Virus record (IMG/VR): IMGVR_UViG_3300023179_000160
Location: 1 to 50,372 of that record
DNA from: a virus
Strand: one strand, 5' to 3'
DNA length: 50,372 bases
Under the pieces are notes generated by a model. The model did not search any database and had not been told where the DNA came from. It was given only the letters and a program-made list of their open reading frames with translations. A program made the translations under genes and the position numbers. This document shows positions 6,037-23,056 of this stretch, piece after piece (the stretch's first letter is position 1; every line of letters starts with the position of its first letter).

Positions 6037-6786
6037 TTAACTATTGTAACCTAGTTTCTTTACTTGTCCTGTTATTTTATCCCATTCGTCCAGGCAATTC
6101 AGCACAAATTGCTTTTGTTGCTCTACTGAAGTATTCTGATTATTCACTCTTATTAAGAGAATTCCTCTCTTTAAGGCTTCAGCTTCTTCTACTGAATCTC
6201 TTATTTTTGTAGCTTCAAAATTATGACCTTCATGAACTTTTTTAAAGTGCCAGATTCCATCAGATTCTATCCAAACTTTCTTGTCAAGAGAAACTATGTC
6301 GACATCAAAGATGATATCTTGCGTACGAATGATTTGGTGTCTCTTAAAACCGTGATCTCTAAGAGATTCAGCAAGCTCTCTTTCAGGTCTTGAAGAACAC
6401 CTCTTATTTGCTGTGATTCTTTCAATCGATCTACTTCGTAATTCAGGATTATTCCTATATGTCTCTTTGAGAGTTAAACTTTTCTTAAGATTTGATTCCT
6501 CAGAAAATTCTCTTGATTTCCAGCAGCTTAAAGAACATGTCAAGCGTCCTTTATAAGAGCGCTCAGGTGAATAAGTGACTTCAAAAGTATTTCCGCACTT
6601 ACAAGTTCTAGTCTCTGTTGTCTCAGATTTTTCTCCAAACCTCTTTAGATTTGTTGCCTTTGCTTTCTCTCTTAATTTTTCTAGGCCTTCTTGAGAGTAT
6701 TTTTCTTCTTTATGATTCCACCTGACGTGGTTAGCCTTTTGCTGAAATGTTAAAAACTCCTGATTGCATATCTCACATTTTCTCAT
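6037..6786 (-). CDS. Free-standing homing endonuclease, zinc finger plus Vsr-like (EDxHD-type) nuclease
   Basis: 249 residues from the ATG at 6786. The frame stays open upstream into the tmRNA, but that extension is artefactual because it would encode tmRNA sequence. Residues 4-25 form a C2H2 finger (C4, C7, H20, H25). A second Cys cluster (CKCGN...CSLSCW) lies near residues 65-95. The C-terminal domain has FDVDIV, then WIESDGIWHF, then an R-D...A..R.G.LL.R.V tail. This is the pattern of Vsr-like nucleases used by the EDxHD homing family. The gene begins 43 nt past the 3' end of the tmRNA on the same strand. A long inverted repeat encloses its start codon. Confidence 0.85.
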   Translation of the reverse strand: MRKCEICNQEFLTFQQKANHVRWNHKEEKYSQEGLEKLREKAKATNLKRFGEKSETTETRTCKCGNTFEVTYSPERSYKGRLTCSLSCWKSREFSEESNLKKSLTLKETYRNNPELRSRSIERITANKRCSSRPERELAESLRDHGFKRHQIIRTQDIIFDVDIVSLDKKVWIESDGIWHFKKVHEGHNFEATKIRDSVEEAEALKRGILLIRVNNQNTSVEQQKQFVLNCLDEWDKITGQVKKLGYNS

Positions 6787-6810
6787 GTGAATAAGTATGC
6801 AATCAGGAGT
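6756..6810 (-). promoter_or_regulatory. Long inverted repeat enclosing the homing endonuclease start codon
   Basis: Perfect 15-bp arms (6756-6770 and 6796-6810) enclose an inner 6-bp stem (6773-6778 with 6785-6790). In RNA form the ATG at 6786-6784 falls at the tip of the nested hairpin and no free Shine-Dalgarno is visible. One arm is the coding sequence for ICNQE, and the other lies in the leader. T4 homing endonuclease genes are known to hide their ribosome sites in hairpins from long transcripts. A similar role here is inference. Confidence 0.6.
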
Positions 6811-6828
6811 GGAACCGACAAAATTGAG

Positions 6829-7198
6829 TGGAGGTGGGGGGAATCGAACCCGCCGTCCGCCACGTGTCCTCAAGGAGCATCATCCACAAGCTTGGAATGG
6901 ATTTCTCGACTCCATCCTCGTCTAGAAGATTTCCGCTTGATTCGGGTCGATCATCTTCAACTCACCCTATCCCAGGCACCGCCCTCCTGGACATTCCACC
7001 CCTGACAACGGGGGTAACTACATTGCTTGTGACTTTCTGTTCCTAGGTTGTCACCACCCGTTGCTCAGGCCGCGAGGGCGAGAGCAGCGTAGCCGTTGTC
7101 GTTGGCAACTGGACGTCACTTGGGTTTTGAACCGGACCCTCGTGCACCGGTGCTTGCTGTTCCTCGATTCTCCGCGCCGTCGAAACCTTTACACCCCC
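6829..7198 (-). ncRNA. ssrA: Virus-encoded transfer-messenger RNA (tmRNA)
   Basis: The minus-strand RNA starts GGGGGUGUAAAGGUUUCGAC and ends in a T-arm GGGUUCGAUUCCCCC followed by CACCUCC and discriminator A at 6829. The first seven bases pair with CACCUCC over 7 bp with a G3-U70 wobble, the identity element of alanyl-tRNA synthetase. CCA is not encoded (CUC follows) and would have to be added. A 13-codon tag frame lies at 7106-7065. Several GC hairpins between tag and tRNA-like part are consistent with pseudoknots. The molecule would enter stalled ribosomes, add the tag and mark the product for proteolysis. Phage structural genes on both sides show it is viral. It lies 5 nt downstream of the stop of 7204-7461, so it may be processed from a longer transcript. 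Confidence 0.93.
7065..7106 (-). other. tmRNA proteolysis-tag reading frame
   Basis: The frame reads from resume codon GCC: ANDNGYAALALAA then TGA. Together with the alanine carried by the tmRNA the tag is A-ANDNGYAALALAA. It begins with AND as in E. coli (AANDENYALAA) and ends in LAA, the signal read by ClpXP in known systems. It is longer than the E. coli tag and carries an extra AL repeat. Confidence 0.9.
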
Positions 7199-7203
7199 TG
7201 ATC

Positions 7204-7461
7204 TTACTTCTTTGGTTTTGGAAGGTCCTTAGTTACTTCCTCGTTCTTTTGTTCCAGATCCTTAATCTTCTTTGATTGAGTCTCCTCCCATGCTTGGAAT
7301 CCGTCTGCCTTTGCCTTATCATATTCCTTCTGTAGGGCATCTAGGATGACAAGTCTGTACTTGTTGAGGAGAACCTCGTGATCTTCTGGAAAGAGCATCT
7401 GGTTCTTGATGAGGACCTCAAATGTGTGGAGGACCTCATGAGGAGTGAACATGTGAATCAT
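7204..7461 (-). CDS. Hypothetical helical protein (85 aa)
   Basis: 85 residues starting MIHMFTPHEVLHTFEVLIKN and ending in a lysine- and proline-rich tail. It is mostly predicted helix, with KKIKDLEQKNEEV looking like coiled coil. Its start overlaps the stop of 7458-8024 by the ATGA arrangement, so translation is probably coupled. A second in-frame ATG at codon 4 is possible. The stop lies 5 nt from the mature 5' end of the tmRNA. No family recognised. Confidence 0.65.
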   Translation of the reverse strand: MIHMFTPHEVLHTFEVLIKNQMLFPEDHEVLLNKYRLVILDALQKEYDKAKADGFQAWEETQSKKIKDLEQKNEEVTKDLPKPKK

Positions 7462-8086: not shown

Positions 8087-8353
8087 TCAGTAGGACTTGT
8101 TGGCCGCCTGATAGTGCTTCTGCAACGTACGATAAAGAGTTCTTGCAGTTCGACCGTCGAATCGGAACGTGCTGCCCTCCGACGTATTAATGAAAAGCAT
8201 CGTCGAATCGTTCTTTGGATCCGTGCTTACGCTGACATTAACACTGTTTTCGTCTCGACGAAATGTCTCGGTGCGAAGACGACCGCGGCGGTCCTCACGG
8301 GTACGGATCGATGCATTCTTGTTCTGCGAAACGGTGTTGTTCTTGCTTGCCAT
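8087..8353 (-). CDS. Small basic hypothetical protein (88 aa)
   Basis: 88 residues. The N-terminal half is rich in Asn, Arg and Thr and looks disordered. The C-terminal half has a beta-turn-helix pattern (STMLFINTSEG, FRFDGRTARTLYRTLQKHY). AGGAG lies upstream of the ATG and a stem-loop sits just before it. A strong terminator follows. The basic, arginine-rich character would suit nucleic-acid or capsid binding, but the function is unknown. Confidence 0.65.
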   Translation of the reverse strand: MASKNNTVSQNKNASIRTREDRRGRLRTETFRRDENSVNVSVSTDPKNDSTMLFINTSEGSTFRFDGRTARTLYRTLQKHYQAANKSY

Positions 8354-12027: not shown

Positions 12028-13890
12028 TCAGATCACGTTCATGTCCAAGACAGTCACGGTCCCGTAAAAATCACTGCGAACAGTTTTCTTCCCGTATCTT
12101 GTCATTACGCCCTTACGTGGTGTGAAGTCTTCGGGTGCGAAGATCGTCGGTGTCACGATGAGTGGAACGTATGGTGCGTACACGTAGCCCGTCTCGAGGT
12201 AGCTTCCGCCCTTGTAGCCGACGAGGATCTTGTTACGTGCGAAGTAAGGATCCTTGTAGACCGTGAAGCGGTTCGAGAGGGTACCGACTGCCTCTGCGCC
12301 GATCGTGAATGGCGAGCCGACCTGTCCCTCGCCGTCGAGCGAGAACTTGGGCTTGTAGAGGACCGAAGCCTCGAGGATCGTGCAGACGTCGGGTCCTGTG
12401 ACCATGAAGTTTGCCGAGCCGCGGAGGGTCTTGCGGTGGATGGTGTTGGCAACGTCGATGACGGTCTCGATGAGGGTCTCGTACCACTCACGGACTGTAC
12501 CCGTGAACTGTGGTCCGATCTGGTATGCATCGGCGAGGTTCTGGCGTGCGCCTGTGACCTTGTTGACGAAGCGACCAGGTGAGCGGCTCCAGTAGTAGTT
12601 GGCGCCGTTGGCCTGCGAGACGAGGTCGTTGAGGATCTCGCGGTCGATCTCGAGGGCGATCTGCTCCGAGAGGATCGATGTGAGCTCGACTTCAGCGTCC
12701 ATCGAGTGATAGGCGTTGAGGTCCTGTGCGAGCTCGGGGCTCCACTTGGCGCGGAGCTTGCGGGTCTCGGCTGTGATGCTGATGGCCTCGATCTTGATGT
12801 CGATCTCGGGGATGACGGGCGAGGGTGTTGCACCGAAGTCCGTCTCGAACGATGGGATCGTGACCGTGGCACCTGTGCCGCTGTCGACCGAGAGGGCCGA
12901 CGAGAGCGAGAAGGCGACGTCGACTGCACCTGCCGAACCTGAGACGAGGGCTCCATTGGCTCCCTTGACGAGCATGAGGACGTGCGTACCGTTGAGTGCG
13001 TCTGGTGTGAAGACACCGGCGTTCCAGTTACCGCGCTTGTTGAGGCGGCGGAGGTTGAGGACGCCTGTTCCACCCTGGTACGTCTCGCCCCAAGCTGTGC
13101 CTGGGCCTGCGACTCCCTGGAAGACGGCGAGCTGGTTGACGGCGAGCTTGTCCATGTTGTTGAATGACGCGCCGTTGATCGCGAGGACTGCGAAGGCGGC
13201 GTCGAGCGAGTTGCTGGCGAGAGCATTCTCAACGTCTCCGTCGTAATCGGCGAAGCGGGCGTTCGAACCGCTGAAGTCAGTGGCCGAGGCAAGCATGCCA
13301 CCTGATGTCCAGGTGTCGCCGTTTGCGCCCTTCCAGGCGCCGACCGCTGCGAACGAGAGGTTGAGGGCCGAACCTGTCACGCGGCTGTAGCCGGTGTTGA
13401 CGAGGTCGTACATACCGCCGGTGGCGAGCGATCCGCTCTGGACGCCCTTGCCGGTTGGGTTGTTGTAGAGCGACTGACCGCGGGTGTAGGTCGAGCCCGA
13501 CTCACCGGCTGGCTGACCGACGTTCGAACCGTAGGTGTAGTCCAGATAGAAGATGAGGCCCGAGGGGAGGCTCATTGGCTGGATCGAGACGAGCTCGTTG
13601 GCGACGAGGCCACCGAAGACTCTGCGAACGATCGGGAATGCGATGTTCGAGAAGCCCTGGATCTGACCCGAGCCGGCGAGGTTGCCGCCGCCCGACGAAA
13701 GGGCGTTCGACTCCTTGAGGACCTGGGCTGCCTGGTTCTCGAGGAGCTGGGCCATGACTTCACGGCGCTGGCCTTCGAGGCCACGGAGGAGACCTGTGCG
13801 GCTCCACTTCTCTGTGAGGCGGGCTCTCTCGGCTCCGACGTGCTTTTCGCGGATGCCCTGAGCGAGCTGTTCAAGACTAAAATGCTTCAT
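12028..13890 (-). CDS. Major capsid protein, T4 gp23-like
   Basis: 620 residues with AGGAG upstream. The region FPIVRRVFGGLVANELVSIQPM (about residues 82-103) followed by SLPSGLIFYLDYTYGS matches the start of the T4 gp23 core. The C-terminal half contains the expected long helices and ends with YGKKTVRSDFYGTVTV. Residues 1-60 form a charged helical propeptide. L-K-E at 58-60, followed by Ser-Asn-Ala, fits the prohead protease rule and predicts removal of 60 residues. The central 150-330 region is Gly/Ala/Ser-rich and may form the surface insertion. It is strongly GC-rich, in line with codon adaptation of an abundant protein. The scaffold and protease genes lie upstream. Confidence 0.92.
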   Translation of the reverse strand: MKHFSLEQLAQGIREKHVGAERARLTEKWSRTGLLRGLEGQRREVMAQLLENQAAQVLKESNALSSGGGNLAGSGQIQGFSNIAFPIVRRVFGGLVANELVSIQPMSLPSGLIFYLDYTYGSNVGQPAGESGSTYTRGQSLYNNPTGKGVQSGSLATGGMYDLVNTGYSRVTGSALNLSFAAVGAWKGANGDTWTSGGMLASATDFSGSNARFADYDGDVENALASNSLDAAFAVLAINGASFNNMDKLAVNQLAVFQGVAGPGTAWGETYQGGTGVLNLRRLNKRGNWNAGVFTPDALNGTHVLMLVKGANGALVSGSAGAVDVAFSLSSALSVDSGTGATVTIPSFETDFGATPSPVIPEIDIKIEAISITAETRKLRAKWSPELAQDLNAYHSMDAEVELTSILSEQIALEIDREILNDLVSQANGANYYWSRSPGRFVNKVTGARQNLADAYQIGPQFTGTVREWYETLIETVIDVANTIHRKTLRGSANFMVTGPDVCTILEASVLYKPKFSLDGEGQVGSPFTIGAEAVGTLSNRFTVYKDPYFARNKILVGYKGGSYLETGYVYAPYVPLIVTPTIFAPEDFTPRKGVMTRYGKKTVRSDFYGTVTVLDMNVI

Positions 13891-16764: not shown

Positions 16765-17199
16765 TTATTTCTTTGTTGGCGATCCCATGAATGCAAGTGA
16801 AGCCCATTTTGAAGTAACATCATCTCCAAATAGGTCTTCTGGGTTGGCCTGAGAGACAACTTGTTCAACAAGTCCTCCTCCTGCCATTGGAATTGAATTT
16901 TTTCCTTCACCGGCTTGTAAAAATTTTGGAAGAGTAGATGCTGCAGTATCAGCAAGAATTGACTCCAAAATTTTATCTCCACCTGATTCTCTTCTGATGG
17001 CCTCTTTTAGCTGAGGTGTCTGCTGAGGGAAATTCTGACGTGGAGCCTGTCTCTTGTGACTGTCAGAAAGAGACGTTGAAACAGGAAATTGAGCCTTTGT
17101 AGGAAAAGACGAATGTGTCTTTTCTCCGAGGCCTTCACTCAGCAATTCAACTAGACACTCTTTGACAATATTTTTAAGATCAGACTTAGAAATCTTCAT
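16765..17199 (-). CDS. Small head-block protein with capsid-targeting-like leader (144 aa)
   Basis: Starts MKISKSDLKNIVKECLVELL, matching the shared leader with V-K-E at the predicted cleavage point. The middle is polar and disordered (QAPRQNFPQQTPQLKEA). The C-terminal part has ADTAASTLPKFLQAG, VVSQANPEDLFGDDVTSKWASLAF and ends MGSPTKK. GAGG sits 6 nt before the ATG, and the gene lies 8 nt from the protease stop. It may be an internal head protein; no specific family recognised. Confidence 0.68.
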   Translation of the reverse strand: MKISKSDLKNIVKECLVELLSEGLGEKTHSSFPTKAQFPVSTSLSDSHKRQAPRQNFPQQTPQLKEAIRRESGGDKILESILADTAASTLPKFLQAGEGKNSIPMAGGGLVEQVVSQANPEDLFGDDVTSKWASLAFMGSPTKK

Positions 17200-18679: not shown

Positions 18680-21600
18680 TCACTTGCTCCCGTCGTCGTC
18701 TATTATGAGGACTTCTTTGTGTTCGCGTGCGTCGGCCTCATTGAAATTATCTGATTCTTTGAGGATTTGTGCTGTTTGATCAGTATTTTTAACAAAATTC
18801 TTAAATCTGTTAGACTGAACCATCTGTCTTAATGACGAAACTACATCGTTGCCTATAGGTGTTTTGTAAATGGTCCGGTTGGCAGATTCTCCAAATGGAT
18901 TTCTTACATAAGAAGATGTCCACTCTTTGTCGTAAGGGTCAGAATACGATTTGTTGTCATAATCAGTCATCTTTTTTAAGTCAGGCATGTGAGTTTTTGC
19001 AGGCCCATTGTGACGTATTCTGGATCTGTTATAGAGGGCTCTATCAAGCTGACGTTGCGCCTTAACAGGAACTTCAACGTCCTTAAGTGAAAACTTAACA
19101 GGGACATCTTCGTCATCAGGATCGTCTCCGGCCGTCAATAGGTCGAGGTAAGGATTCTTTTGAGTTGCATCATCTCCTGCAAAGAGATCTCCACCTTCTT
19201 CCTCACCTTCTGCACCGCCGGCTTCGGCTTTTTCTTCACCCGTCTCTTCTTCTGATCCACCAGTTTCTTCTCCACTGCCGCCAGCAGGTTCAGCACTCTC
19301 AATTGCTTGATCGACCAATTTTTCTTTAAGGCGCTGATCATCAATTTCCTTGCACTGATCATCATTGAGGCCCCAGATCTCCTTGCGAATGAACTCCTTG
19401 GACATCTGTCCTTCGGGCGCTGAACCTGCAATCTCGAATTTGGATCTCCACAGTTCAAGTTTCTGTTGCTGGGCAACAGTGGATGGGTTAGACATACGCA
19501 GGGCAAAGTTCTGTAAATCTTCAGAATCAAAGCCATGGGCATAAAGGTGAATAATAGCGAGTTTATTCAGCTCAGCCACGATTGTCTTCTGAATAACGTT
19601 GATCGTGCGAGAGAACCTGATGTCTTCCTGGGCGAGTGTGGCCTTGCTGGAGAGGGCTTCATCGTAACCGAGGTAGGCACGAGGAATCTTGAGGGCTGCG
19701 AAGAGCTTCTTCTGGATGTAAGCAACATCTTCTACTGCCGCAGTGTTTTGTCCACCTGCAAGAGTGTCGATGCGAGTGCCGGAATCCCCGCCTCTGACGG
19801 GGATGAAGTAGTCCTCATCGACAGAGAGAGGATTGTAACGAAGATCAACTCGCCCCGTGTTTCTGTCGATGACCTGAGAGGATCGAAGGTTCTTCCTCTG
19901 TTCCTCAACGTACATGGGAACGTTCTCGGGAGGAATGTTGGCAACATCGATGTAGAACACTCTTCTCTCGGGAGCTCGGACAACGCGGTACACCAACATG
20001 GCATCCTCGATGAGGATCAATTGGCGCCAGATCCTGCGTGCCGGTTCGATGATTGATGAACCGTAGGGAAGGAACATGTCGTTGCCGAGGAGGCGGAAGT
20101 GGGTGACTTCCCAGTTCTCTAAGGTCCTGTTTCCGAGAGTGACCCAACGGTAACGGACCGCCATGGGGTCGTTTGGATCGTAGTTCTCTTCGCGCTCTAT
20201 CTCATTGACGGGAATGGGAAAGGCACTGATCACACCGTGCTCAGGTGACACGTCGTTGTAGAGGAACATGTCTCCGTACTTGACGAGGTTGCGAACCCAA
20301 GAGCGGAGGTTGAACTCCACGTTGAGCGTGTTGTAGAAGAGGTCTTCTAGAATCTCTCTGATCTTCTCGTTGTCCGAGTAGATGTGGAGGACACGACCCT
20401 TTTCGTCCTGGGCGCAGTTGTGAACAAAAACATAAGAATGATTGTGAGGATTTGTGGATGCTGCAAAATTATGCCAGTTCCTTACTTCAAGGTCAAATAC
20501 ATCTTCTACACCGTCTTCTTCAATGGAAATTATTCTATGATTGGTTCTAGAAAGATAATCGTCCCAATTCTTGTAACCGCTATTTTCAAGTGCAACGTAT
20601 GCTTGCTTTCGAGTTATTCCAATGTCTCGACATGCTTTTGACAAAAAACGACGAAGATCAACAGATTCTGGTTGACACTTTATCCAATCTCTGATATTAC
20701 CAACTATTAATTGGGAATCAACGACATATTTCTTTGACCATTTTTTAATACCAAAGTCGGTCATCAATCGCTTCATATCTGTGTCACGAATCGGAATTTC
20801 TGAACAAACTTGTTTTTTGCTCTTTCCGGACATGATCCAGCAAATGATTTGATCTTTCGACACGCTTCTTATGAAATCAGGTCTCCAGCGACCATTCTTG
20901 TCGCCAAATATCTTTTCACCTTTACCGTACATTCCGTTCTGTGAACCTTTGCGTCCAAAAAGACGTTTTTTAGTTTCAGTATCGTAACTGGAAAATACTT
21001 CATTTCGTCGTTTCAAGAAAAAATCAGTAAACCCGGGCGTTTCATGTAGTCTTTTTGCATGATCTTTGAAGATTCCTGTCATCTTTTCAGCATACTTGCG
21101 ATCAACTTTCCACTTGTAAGAGTTGCTTGAAGCATGTAGTAATTGATGATCCTTTCGAGACATAAAACTAAGATTTGAAGGGTTGTTGTTAAGTTTGTTA
21201 AAATCTGCGTGATGAACGACGCCTTTCTCGTTAGGATTCGTGTGTTCTGCGACAATCCTATGTGTGTATTTCCATCCTGAAGATGTTAAAACTTTTTCAT
21301 ATCCGTCTAACTTGTCTCCAAATGCTGTAGAAGATGTAGACGTATGTAAAGATCTAATACTGTCTCCGACTTTTAGATCTCTTGCATGAACATATCGACC
21401 GTCACTGAAGAGAACCCTATGGTTGTCAGTCAGCCTAATGTAAGTTCCATCGTCAAATGTAAACTTATAGAGTTTCTTTGTTCCTGTCTTTACGGCGTAC
21501 GTAGCATGCCCAGGAACTATTTCATTTTTCTCTAGATCGTATGAGTAGACCCAAAAATCTTTTTTTTCCTCTTCATAAATCTGTTTAATTGTCGGTCTTG

Positions 21601-23056
21601 TTCCATCAAGAAGAGGAACAACAGTGTCTCCGGATAGACAAGTTTCATCTGCATATATATCGAGGGCGGCTGCCAACTCAGGAGTGTTGTGAGAGATGAC
21701 AGTGTCTGTTGCAAAGTTCTTGTAACCATCTACCGTGAGGTCATAGAGAGGAATCACACCGTGAGGTTCCACGGAGACGACTTTGAGGTTGTCATAGGAA
21801 GACGAGAAGTCTGAGTAGTTCTTGTAACCTCTCTCTTTGACTCTTCCCTCAATGACGTGAACTGTAGTCCCTAAGGACTCTGCTAACTGTTTGTTCGACA
21901 TTCCCTTAGAAAAATGCGAACATATTTTATCAAAGGTAATTGATCTGACATAACGAGGATTCTTCTCACCTCTGTTGTCCCATCCACCGTTGCACCAGTC
22001 TGGGTTGTATGCACGGGCAAATGTTTCGAAGTTCTGGTAACCGTGCTTGCGAAGTCTGCATTTGATCACGTTTGGATCTGTGTCAAGAACTTCGCACATC
22101 TTGCGAGAGTTGAAACCTGTCCTCTCTGCAACTTCGAGGATCCTTCCGAATGTGATGTCTTTTCGCTCGGCGGGATTGTTCTCGGACATGAACTTTGAGT
22201 GGTTCGCCTTAAACTGTTGGATCCACTGAGAGTTGCCTTCTGACCACTTGACACCGTTAATGATCTTGGAATGAAGTTCTCGATGTGCCTCTTCGGTCAT
22301 GACCTCGAGGTTCTCAGGTCGATTGTCGTGCTTCACGAAGTTCCTGTGATGGACCACCTCACCCTCATCAAGAGGAGAACCCTTGATCATCTCACCGATC
22401 ACTCTGTGCTCAGCGACCCATCCGTTCATCTTGGACCGCCTGTCCATTGTATAGATCCATCGATAACCTTCTCCCTCTTCTTTGCATCCACTGAAGAGGT
22501 CTCTCCTGTAGAAAGGCATCATCGCATCGCCAGGTTTGAGGTCCTCAATCTTGCAGAACGTCCCATCGCGCTTCATTAGGCGATGATTCGGAGTGCCGAT
22601 GATCTTCTGACCATTGTCAAAAGTGACTGTGAAAGATTCATCTACTCGAGTCTGTCGGGCTTGCTTTCCAAGTGCAGGGACGATCCTCTGCAGGTTGTGA
22701 TCATAAGCATACACGAGGAACGTGTGGTCAGGCCTTCCTTCGCATTCTTTTGCAAGTTCCGTGAGAGTCTTGTATCCACCCGGAACTGCAATCTTTGTGT
22801 CACCATGGAGACAATATTCCATCTCTGCGAAATCTTGATATCTCATCAATCTCTCAGACAAATTGTACGCGTTCGCCGTGATGGTGGCGTATGTGGGTGC
22901 CATCGACTTCTGAAAGAGGAGGGCACCAGAGCTCTTTGTCTTGTCAGCAACTGCTATGGTAGTGTCGAGCGCCCTGATCTTTCTCTTGACCACGGGACCA
23001 CTTCTGAATAACTTTGTGAGCTTCTGAAAGAGGTTTTGTTCTTCTTTTTTCGCCAT
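18680..23056 (-). CDS. Portal protein, T4 gp20-like, interrupted by two inteins
   Basis: 1458 codons. Removing the inteins at residues 82-457 and 473-880 leaves a mature portal of 674 residues. Joined exteins read YQDFAEMEY-TPELAAALDIYADET-CAQDEKGRV, a conserved T4-type portal stretch. Downstream come LRSWVRNLVKYGDMFL, FRLLGNDMFLPYGSSIIEPARRIWRQL, YRVVRAPERRVFYIDV and YLGYDEALSSKATLAQEDIRFSRTI. All fit gp20-type portals, which form the dodecameric DNA channel. The C-terminal end has an acidic Gly/Glu tail near mature residues 470-530. Splicing must occur twice to make a functional protein. It lies between terminase and prohead core genes. Confidence 0.93.
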   Translation of the reverse strand: MAKKEEQNLFQKLTKLFRSGPVVKRKIRALDTTIAVADKTKSSGALLFQKSMAPTYATITANAYNLSERLMRYQDFAEMEYCLHGDTKIAVPGGYKTLTELAKECEGRPDHTFLVYAYDHNLQRIVPALGKQARQTRVDESFTVTFDNGQKIIGTPNHRLMKRDGTFCKIEDLKPGDAMMPFYRRDLFSGCKEEGEGYRWIYTMDRRSKMNGWVAEHRVIGEMIKGSPLDEGEVVHHRNFVKHDNRPENLEVMTEEAHRELHSKIINGVKWSEGNSQWIQQFKANHSKFMSENNPAERKDITFGRILEVAERTGFNSRKMCEVLDTDPNVIKCRLRKHGYQNFETFARAYNPDWCNGGWDNRGEKNPRYVRSITFDKICSHFSKGMSNKQLAESLGTTVHVIEGRVKERGYKNYSDFSSSYDNLKVVSVEPHGVIPLYDLTVDGYKNFATDTVISHNTPELAAALDIYADETCLSGDTVVPLLDGTRPTIKQIYEEEKKDFWVYSYDLEKNEIVPGHATYAVKTGTKKLYKFTFDDGTYIRLTDNHRVLFSDGRYVHARDLKVGDSIRSLHTSTSSTAFGDKLDGYEKVLTSSGWKYTHRIVAEHTNPNEKGVVHHADFNKLNNNPSNLSFMSRKDHQLLHASSNSYKWKVDRKYAEKMTGIFKDHAKRLHETPGFTDFFLKRRNEVFSSYDTETKKRLFGRKGSQNGMYGKGEKIFGDKNGRWRPDFIRSVSKDQIICWIMSGKSKKQVCSEIPIRDTDMKRLMTDFGIKKWSKKYVVDSQLIVGNIRDWIKCQPESVDLRRFLSKACRDIGITRKQAYVALENSGYKNWDDYLSRTNHRIISIEEDGVEDVFDLEVRNWHNFAASTNPHNHSYVFVHNCAQDEKGRVLHIYSDNEKIREILEDLFYNTLNVEFNLRSWVRNLVKYGDMFLYNDVSPEHGVISAFPIPVNEIEREENYDPNDPMAVRYRWVTLGNRTLENWEVTHFRLLGNDMFLPYGSSIIEPARRIWRQLILIEDAMLVYRVVRAPERRVFYIDVANIPPENVPMYVEEQRKNLRSSQVIDRNTGRVDLRYNPLSVDEDYFIPVRGGDSGTRIDTLAGGQNTAAVEDVAYIQKKLFAALKIPRAYLGYDEALSSKATLAQEDIRFSRTINVIQKTIVAELNKLAIIHLYAHGFDSEDLQNFALRMSNPSTVAQQQKLELWRSKFEIAGSAPEGQMSKEFIRKEIWGLNDDQCKEIDDQRLKEKLVDQAIESAEPAGGSGEETGGSEEETGEEKAEAGGAEGEEEGGDLFAGDDATQKNPYLDLLTAGDDPDDEDVPVKFSLKDVEVPVKAQRQLDRALYNRSRIRHNGPAKTHMPDLKKMTDYDNKSYSDPYDKEWTSSYVRNPFGESANRTIYKTPIGNDVVSSLRQMVQSNRFKNFVKNTDQTAQILKESDNFNEADAREHKEVLIIDDDGSK
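20417..21640 (-). mobile_element. Portal intein 2 (408 aa) with HNH homing domain
   Basis: Starts at Cys 473 (CLSGDT). Block B is LTDNHRVLF. Block F is VFDLEVRNWHNFAAS. It ends VFVHN before extein Cys. HNH signature: VVHHADFNKLNNNPSNLSFM with a later H-x3-H. A NUMOD-like SQNGMYGKGEKIFGDKNGRW segment and a repeat ending GYKNWDDY follow. It is AT-rich compared with the flanking extein, which suggests independent arrival. The insertion point is 15 residues after intein 1. Confidence 0.93.
21686..22813 (-). mobile_element. Portal intein 1 (376 aa) with HNH homing domain
   Basis: Starts at Cys 82 (CLHGDT, block A). Block B is GTPNHRLM. Block F is LYDLTVDGYKNF. The end is VISHN followed by extein Thr. 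The central part has an HNH signature VVHHRNFVKHDNRPENLEVM with a later His. After it come two related helix-turn-helix-like repeats ending GYQNFETF and GYKNYSDF, probably for DNA recognition. All class-1 splicing residues (Cys1, block-B His, penultimate His, terminal Asn, +1 Thr) are present, so it should splice and cleave. Confidence 0.93.

Follow-up and report, generated by a model that had tools for sequence, protein, structure and literature searches.

A probable working one-piece tmRNA in a large T4-like phage and its viral relatives

The window analyzed here, a virus contig of 50 kb from IMG/VR (50,372 nucleotides), carries a single tmRNA gene on its minus strand (7198-6828), which ARAGORN calls as one-piece and complete, with the tag ANDNGYAALALAA. 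We consider it probable (about 0.82) that this is a working tmRNA of a large T4-like phage, which would rely on the SmpB of the host to rescue ribosomes and to tag proteins for host proteases. Phage tmRNAs are already known: they occur in ~2.3% of 18,146 phage genomes (PMC9004378), a database of 2025 holds 79 unique ones (PMC11915505), and huge phages with both tmRNA and SmpB have been reported (PMC7162821). What is new is a family of relatives in large phages and the variation of the parts of the RNA among them.

Anatomy, tag and conservation of the tmRNA

The gene (6828..7198, mature RNA from about 7198 to 6829; all features below are on the minus strand) matches the Rfam tmRNA model RF00023 between 7198 and 6826, over model positions 1-374 of 374, with 68.9 bits (E 7.7e-25) for a curated cut-off of 47 bits. 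It starts with GGUUUCGACGG. The two strands of the acceptor stem, GGGGGUG (7192..7198) and CACCUCC (6830..6836, with the discriminator A at 6829), form 7 of 7 pairs and include the alanine identity pair G3-U70, as seen in the sequence and in a comparison of 19 viral sequences. The T-arm (6837..6854), placed by the Rfam model and the viral comparison, has a canonical UUCGAUU loop and a stem with a single bulged C that is shared with the relative L004. The CCA end is absent from the gene (..CACCUCC-A-CUC) and is encoded by about half of the relatives. The tag frame, ANDNGYAALALAA-stop (7065..7106), was located by ARAGORN, a pattern scan and the tags of relatives; it has 13 residues, a degradation-type C-terminus and a TGA stop. 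The order of the parts (5' half, tag, 3' half) is not permuted, and the permuted families RF01849 and RF04321 have no match in the window at their cut-offs in the Rfam scan. A sequence-only reading of this DNA had proposed a virus-encoded tmRNA with a 7-bp acceptor, G3-U70, a T-arm, a tmRNA-like 5' start, a tag frame and no CCA. All of these are present, with the T-stem bulge to be added, and the two programs agree with the proposal, as does the conservation of the tRNA-like and mRNA-like parts across relatives.

The same reading regarded the tag as unusual, which is not what we find. Judged from its sequence, the tag is ordinary in length and alphaproteobacterial in style (ANDN...LAA), since the tags of the alphaproteobacterial type that we sampled have 10-13 residues and follow an ANDN...AA style. 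More precisely, the permuted tmRNAs sampled from Pseudomonadota (n=30) have tags of 10-13 residues that start with ANDN in 28 cases, and the sampled one-piece tmRNAs have tags starting with ANDE or ANDD, with the exception of L112, which entered that sample by tag-pattern selection. Close viral relatives have the tag ANDNG[x]APLALAA and variants of it. Across the clade, the viral tags begin with ANDN, save for L314 (ANGIASAPALAA), and their last residues are xAA or xVA, of the degradation type. A degenerate tag pattern occurs once in the window and in none of 100 shuffles. It was also suggested that comparison with bacterial tags could reveal the host, but the exact tag ANDNGYAALALAA is absent from all bacterial genomes scanned (one per species, 84,980 species). 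We thus rejected the idea that the tag was copied from a known host: the sole match of the scan, run with a degenerate pattern that admits the window tag and its near variants, is in Paludibacterium purpuratum, a one-piece tmRNA with a different tag, ANDNVYAPTALAA.

The structure is supported by covariation and not by fold energy, because thermodynamic folding of the window RNA alone is no better than that of shuffles (z 0.08). In the 19 viral sequences, the acceptor stem is fully paired in 18, G3-U70 is kept in 18, and two-sided changes occur at positions 2, 4, 5, 6 and 7. Covariation places the pseudoknot PK1 at 7117..7151, with stem 1 ACCGG/CCGGU and stem 2 CAC.GA.GGGU/ACCC.AA.GUG. Two-sided changes affect 4 of the 5 pairs of stem 1 and 3 of the 7 pairs of stem 2, and in the viral alignment 97.6% and 90.8% of the cells, respectively, are paired. 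The covariation score of PK1, in counts that include a poorly aligned third helix, is reached by 0 of 500 shuffles, a control that ignores the relatedness of the sequences, and exceeds those of all slid versions. The pairing of the pseudoknot, whose absence the earlier reading would have counted against a tmRNA, is thus both present and covarying. After the tag lies a hairpin (7029..7053), GUGAC-[AACCUAGGAACAGAAA]-GUCAC, recognized by the loop motif CCUnGnAACAGAA and by pairing flanks in viral relatives. The motif is found in 12 of 14 viral relatives, where the loop is fixed and the stem sequences differ yet pair. Of the region that holds the pseudoknots PK2-PK4 in a standard tmRNA, this hairpin is the element that the comparison supports. 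Since acceptor stem, PK1 and post-tag hairpin are all kept by compensatory changes, the RNA is under selection.

Relation to bacterial one-piece and permuted tmRNAs

Alphaproteobacteria have a permuted, two-piece tmRNA, in contrast with the one-piece form of the window phage and its relatives. With the standard bacterial one-piece tmRNA (RF00023), the window gene shares the order of the parts, the G3-U70 acceptor, the UUCGA T-loop, the 5' GG.UUCGAC, the tag frame, PK1 and the conserved AAGC.UGU on the 3' side. It differs from it by its ANDN tag, by the CCUnGnAACAGAA post-tag hairpin and by its score of 68.9 bits, which is so far below the 105-287 bits of the one-piece tmRNAs sampled from Pseudomonadota that we regard it as divergent. 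The resemblance to the permuted tmRNAs (RF01849/RF04321) lies in the ANDN...AA tags and in the post-tag hairpin loop CCU[AG]GnAACAGAA, whereas the viral gene is unpermuted and retains a spacing of ~140 nt from the hairpin to the conserved 3'-side AAGC.UGU.

The elbow of the RNA varies within the viral family. The permuted sample combines the T-loop GGC[AG]GUA with A12 in the D-loop, next to the post-tag hairpin that it has in common with the viral tmRNAs. The window lacks this elbow and has UUCGAUU and G12 instead. The two loops go together: UUCRA T-loops occur with G12 in 39 of 39 scored tmRNAs and GGCRGUA with A12 in 55 of 60. Two one-piece viral tmRNAs, L087:1501-1876 (-) and L088:1501-1876 (+), have the permuted-type GGCAGUA T-loop and D-loop A12. 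In the tmRNA DNA tree they nest among the viral relatives near the window, so the D-loop/T-loop elbow appears to have changed as a unit inside the viral lineage. Both were found by Rfam and missed by ARAGORN, which also misses the diverged L079. Censuses based on ARAGORN are therefore likely to be low.

Other phages encode tmRNAs of both forms. The permuted form occurs in Rhodobacter phage RcRudolph, Caulobacter phage CcrSC and Methylophilales phage Melnitz. That of RcRudolph (L350:924-1338) has the tag ANDNVRMDAQALAA and the same hairpin; it overlaps an annotated hypothetical gene, in a record without tmRNA annotation. One-piece tmRNAs with the hairpin motif are found in Streptomyces phage Daubenski and in large phages with long tags (L291, L293, L307, L313, L316, L317). 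Their tags do not start with ANDN, being ANSNVAFALAA in Daubenski and 23-31 residues long in the others. The long-tag tmRNAs cluster with the window group in the tmRNA tree, from which Daubenski was left out, and no gp23 match was found in the examined part of their loci. Given the hairpin in Daubenski and in the long-tag phages, we rejected an origin of this element restricted to alphaproteobacteria.

The tmRNA DNA tree joins the viral one-piece tmRNAs (95/90), separate from those of Pseudomonadota, and is weak on the question of origin owing to alignment noise, cut-down de-permuted rows and missing phyla. The AACAGAA motif also occurs in a one-piece group of Pseudomonadota (tags of the kind ANDEHYAPALAAA), which an RpoB tree places as sister to the permuted group (97); the sampling pattern suggests that this one-piece group corresponds to Magnetococcia. 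The viral tmRNA may descend from an old one-piece viral lineage, may be a remnant that predates the permutation, or may be a re-joined form, and all three origins stand because the hairpin is not limited to the alphaproteobacterial-related group. Re-permutation has been documented for a mitochondrial tmRNA (PMC11915505). We regard as tentative, and rather doubtful, the more specific reading in which an unpermuted relative of the alphaproteobacterial two-piece tmRNA, either pre-permutation or re-joined, serves in alphaproteobacterial hosts with a two-piece tmRNA of their own, its tag and elbow having been tuned separately to the host.

Genomic position and the neighbouring endonuclease

The window encodes a T4-type capsid, portal, protease and terminase, and its capsid-based relatives reach contigs of 370 kb, from which we conclude that it represents part of the genome of a large T4-like phage. 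The major capsid protein (12028..13890) belongs to the T4 gp23 family (Pfam PF07068, E 1.2e-75; PHROG 138), and the nearest named capsids, from Flavobacterium, Microcystis and Rhodothermus phages, have 34-48% identity. Further along (18680-23056), the portal frame of 1458 aa is broken up by HNH-type sequence, which probably represents at least one intein.

In at least 13 relatives (L004, L009, L024, L049, L054, L055, L062, L065, L066, L071, L072, L074, L079), the tmRNA is on the same strand as the gp23 gene and follows it at a distance of a few kb. Eleven of these loci were found by ARAGORN and L079 by nhmmer, whose profile served for the search of the viral family; the remaining one, L024, carries the same RNA as L087, with its non-canonical T-loop. 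L082 is the same contig as L004. In G010 the tmRNA is elsewhere in the genome (L088) and not in the capsid-side slot. The other capsid-related loci examined have no tmRNA at this place, and none was found close to the capsid genes of Microcystis phage Mel-JY01 and of LR756508, a huge uncultured phage. At least one of the absences reflects a loss: in L013, a stump of 48 nt (6710-6757, tmRNA nucleotides 1-48) follows immediately on the slot gene, and neither the remainder of the tmRNA nor the endonuclease gene is present. In L058, a tRNA-Gln(TTG) (17089-17162) occupies the slot. On the capsid tree, whose labels predate the finding of the L079 tmRNA, presence is scattered yet clustered, with 9 changes against 12.2 in shuffles.

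Comparison of relatives identifies two conserved genes upstream. One, of 88 aa (8087..8353), lies between the capsid gene and the tmRNA in nearly all of them. The other is small, ends 6 nt before the tmRNA (7204..7461) and marks the slot in near relatives; the window tmRNA is probably co-transcribed with it. In six relatives (L062, L066, L072, L074, L065, L295), a TTGACAnCCUA-like element absent from the window lies ~35 nt upstream of the tmRNA and, going by its sequence, is possibly a promoter of the tmRNA itself.

Directly 3' of the tmRNA is a probable free-standing homing endonuclease gene (6037..6786), placed by its position in relatives and whose class we infer. The protein has an N-terminal zinc finger and a C-terminal core FDVDIV...WIESDGxxHF. 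It matches Pfam DUF559 weakly (E 0.006), and a search of solved structures gave nothing useful. The gene is found at the same place in L004 (71%), L009/L300 (51%) and L299 (50%, broken frame). Sequence and folding of the stretch reveal a perfect 15-bp inverted repeat around its start codon (6756..6810), which, with the start codon in the loop, may control translation of the gene. Such a neighbour raises the possibility that tmRNA and endonuclease form a homing cassette that spreads by cutting phages lacking the pair. The adjacency in the window, L004, L009 and L299 fits this scenario, as do the patchy distribution of the tmRNA on the capsid tree and the repetition of CACCUCCAC, the tmRNA 3' end, some 10-20 nt downstream in L004 (15890-15930), L009 (17040-17080) and L299, which is seen only where the endonuclease gene follows the tmRNA. 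We nevertheless find it unlikely: most relatives, L302 among them, have the tmRNA without the endonuclease, which makes insertion of the endonuclease beside a pre-existing tmRNA the more probable course of events, and the stump in L013 represents a loss and not an empty site.

Proposed function, host and significance

We found no test in the literature of what tmRNAs do for a phage. Gene, anatomy, compensatory changes, position and tag style are computed; charging, use of SmpB, tagging, proteolysis and the benefit to the phage are what we infer. Host tRNA-processing enzymes would cut the tmRNA out of the transcript, the host nucleotidyltransferase would add CCA, and the host alanyl-tRNA synthetase would recognize G3-U70 and charge it with alanine. 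Bound to host SmpB and EF-Tu, the charged tmRNA would enter ribosomes stalled on broken messages, where A-ANDNGYAALALAA would be added to the unfinished protein, to be destroyed by host proteases such as ClpXP. The phage would gain freed ribosomes while messages break during infection. The remaining mechanism would be that of the established trans-translation pathway. A role in ribosome rescue during infection, as the sequence-only reading had supposed, is consistent with the intact parts of the RNA and their conservation across relatives; that the phage would need rescue because it breaks host mRNA is a conjecture of that reading.

The SmpB used is most likely that of the host, since none was found in the window contig or in 11 related viral records of up to 369 kb, which may be fragments. 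One large phage with a long-tag tmRNA (L354, in the 158-kb contig G229 that also holds L307) also encodes SmpB (157 bits). Without a viral SmpB, the viral tmRNA must compete with that of the host for the protein, and it could act mainly as a decoy or sponge that, by binding SmpB or ribosomes, blocks host rescue or alters the fate of tagged proteins; the tRNA-like-domain-only form of phage DS6A, a type for which inhibition of tmRNA has been demonstrated, is a precedent (PMC4131195). This is improbable here, because relatives conserve the full mRNA-like part, the tag frame with its stop and the degradation-type C-terminus, none of which a pure decoy would require. A functionless passenger, be it a gene taken from a host or the remains of an integration into ssrA, is improbable too: ssrA is a common integration site, and the stump in L013 indicates that some phages can dispense with the tmRNA, but the gene is full-length, with compensatory changes across deep divergence and a fixed position down to ~70% capsid identity, and no integrase was seen among the PHROG annotations.

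For the working tmRNA that we favour, alphaproteobacterial hosts are our best guess, at roughly even odds. The ANDN tag style and the alphaproteobacterial elbow in two relatives suggest such hosts, without amounting to proof. However, the nearest named capsids are not from alphaproteobacterial phages, and a phage with an alphaproteobacterial-type tmRNA that infects another class has been published (PMC9004378).

The family offers many aligned examples of a tmRNA in one phage lineage, with variants of the tag, a loss in L013 and a concerted D-loop/T-loop switch in two members. Such variation allows one to ask directly which parts of a tmRNA must match the host, the candidates being the tag, for proteases and adaptors, and the elbow, for SmpB or processing.
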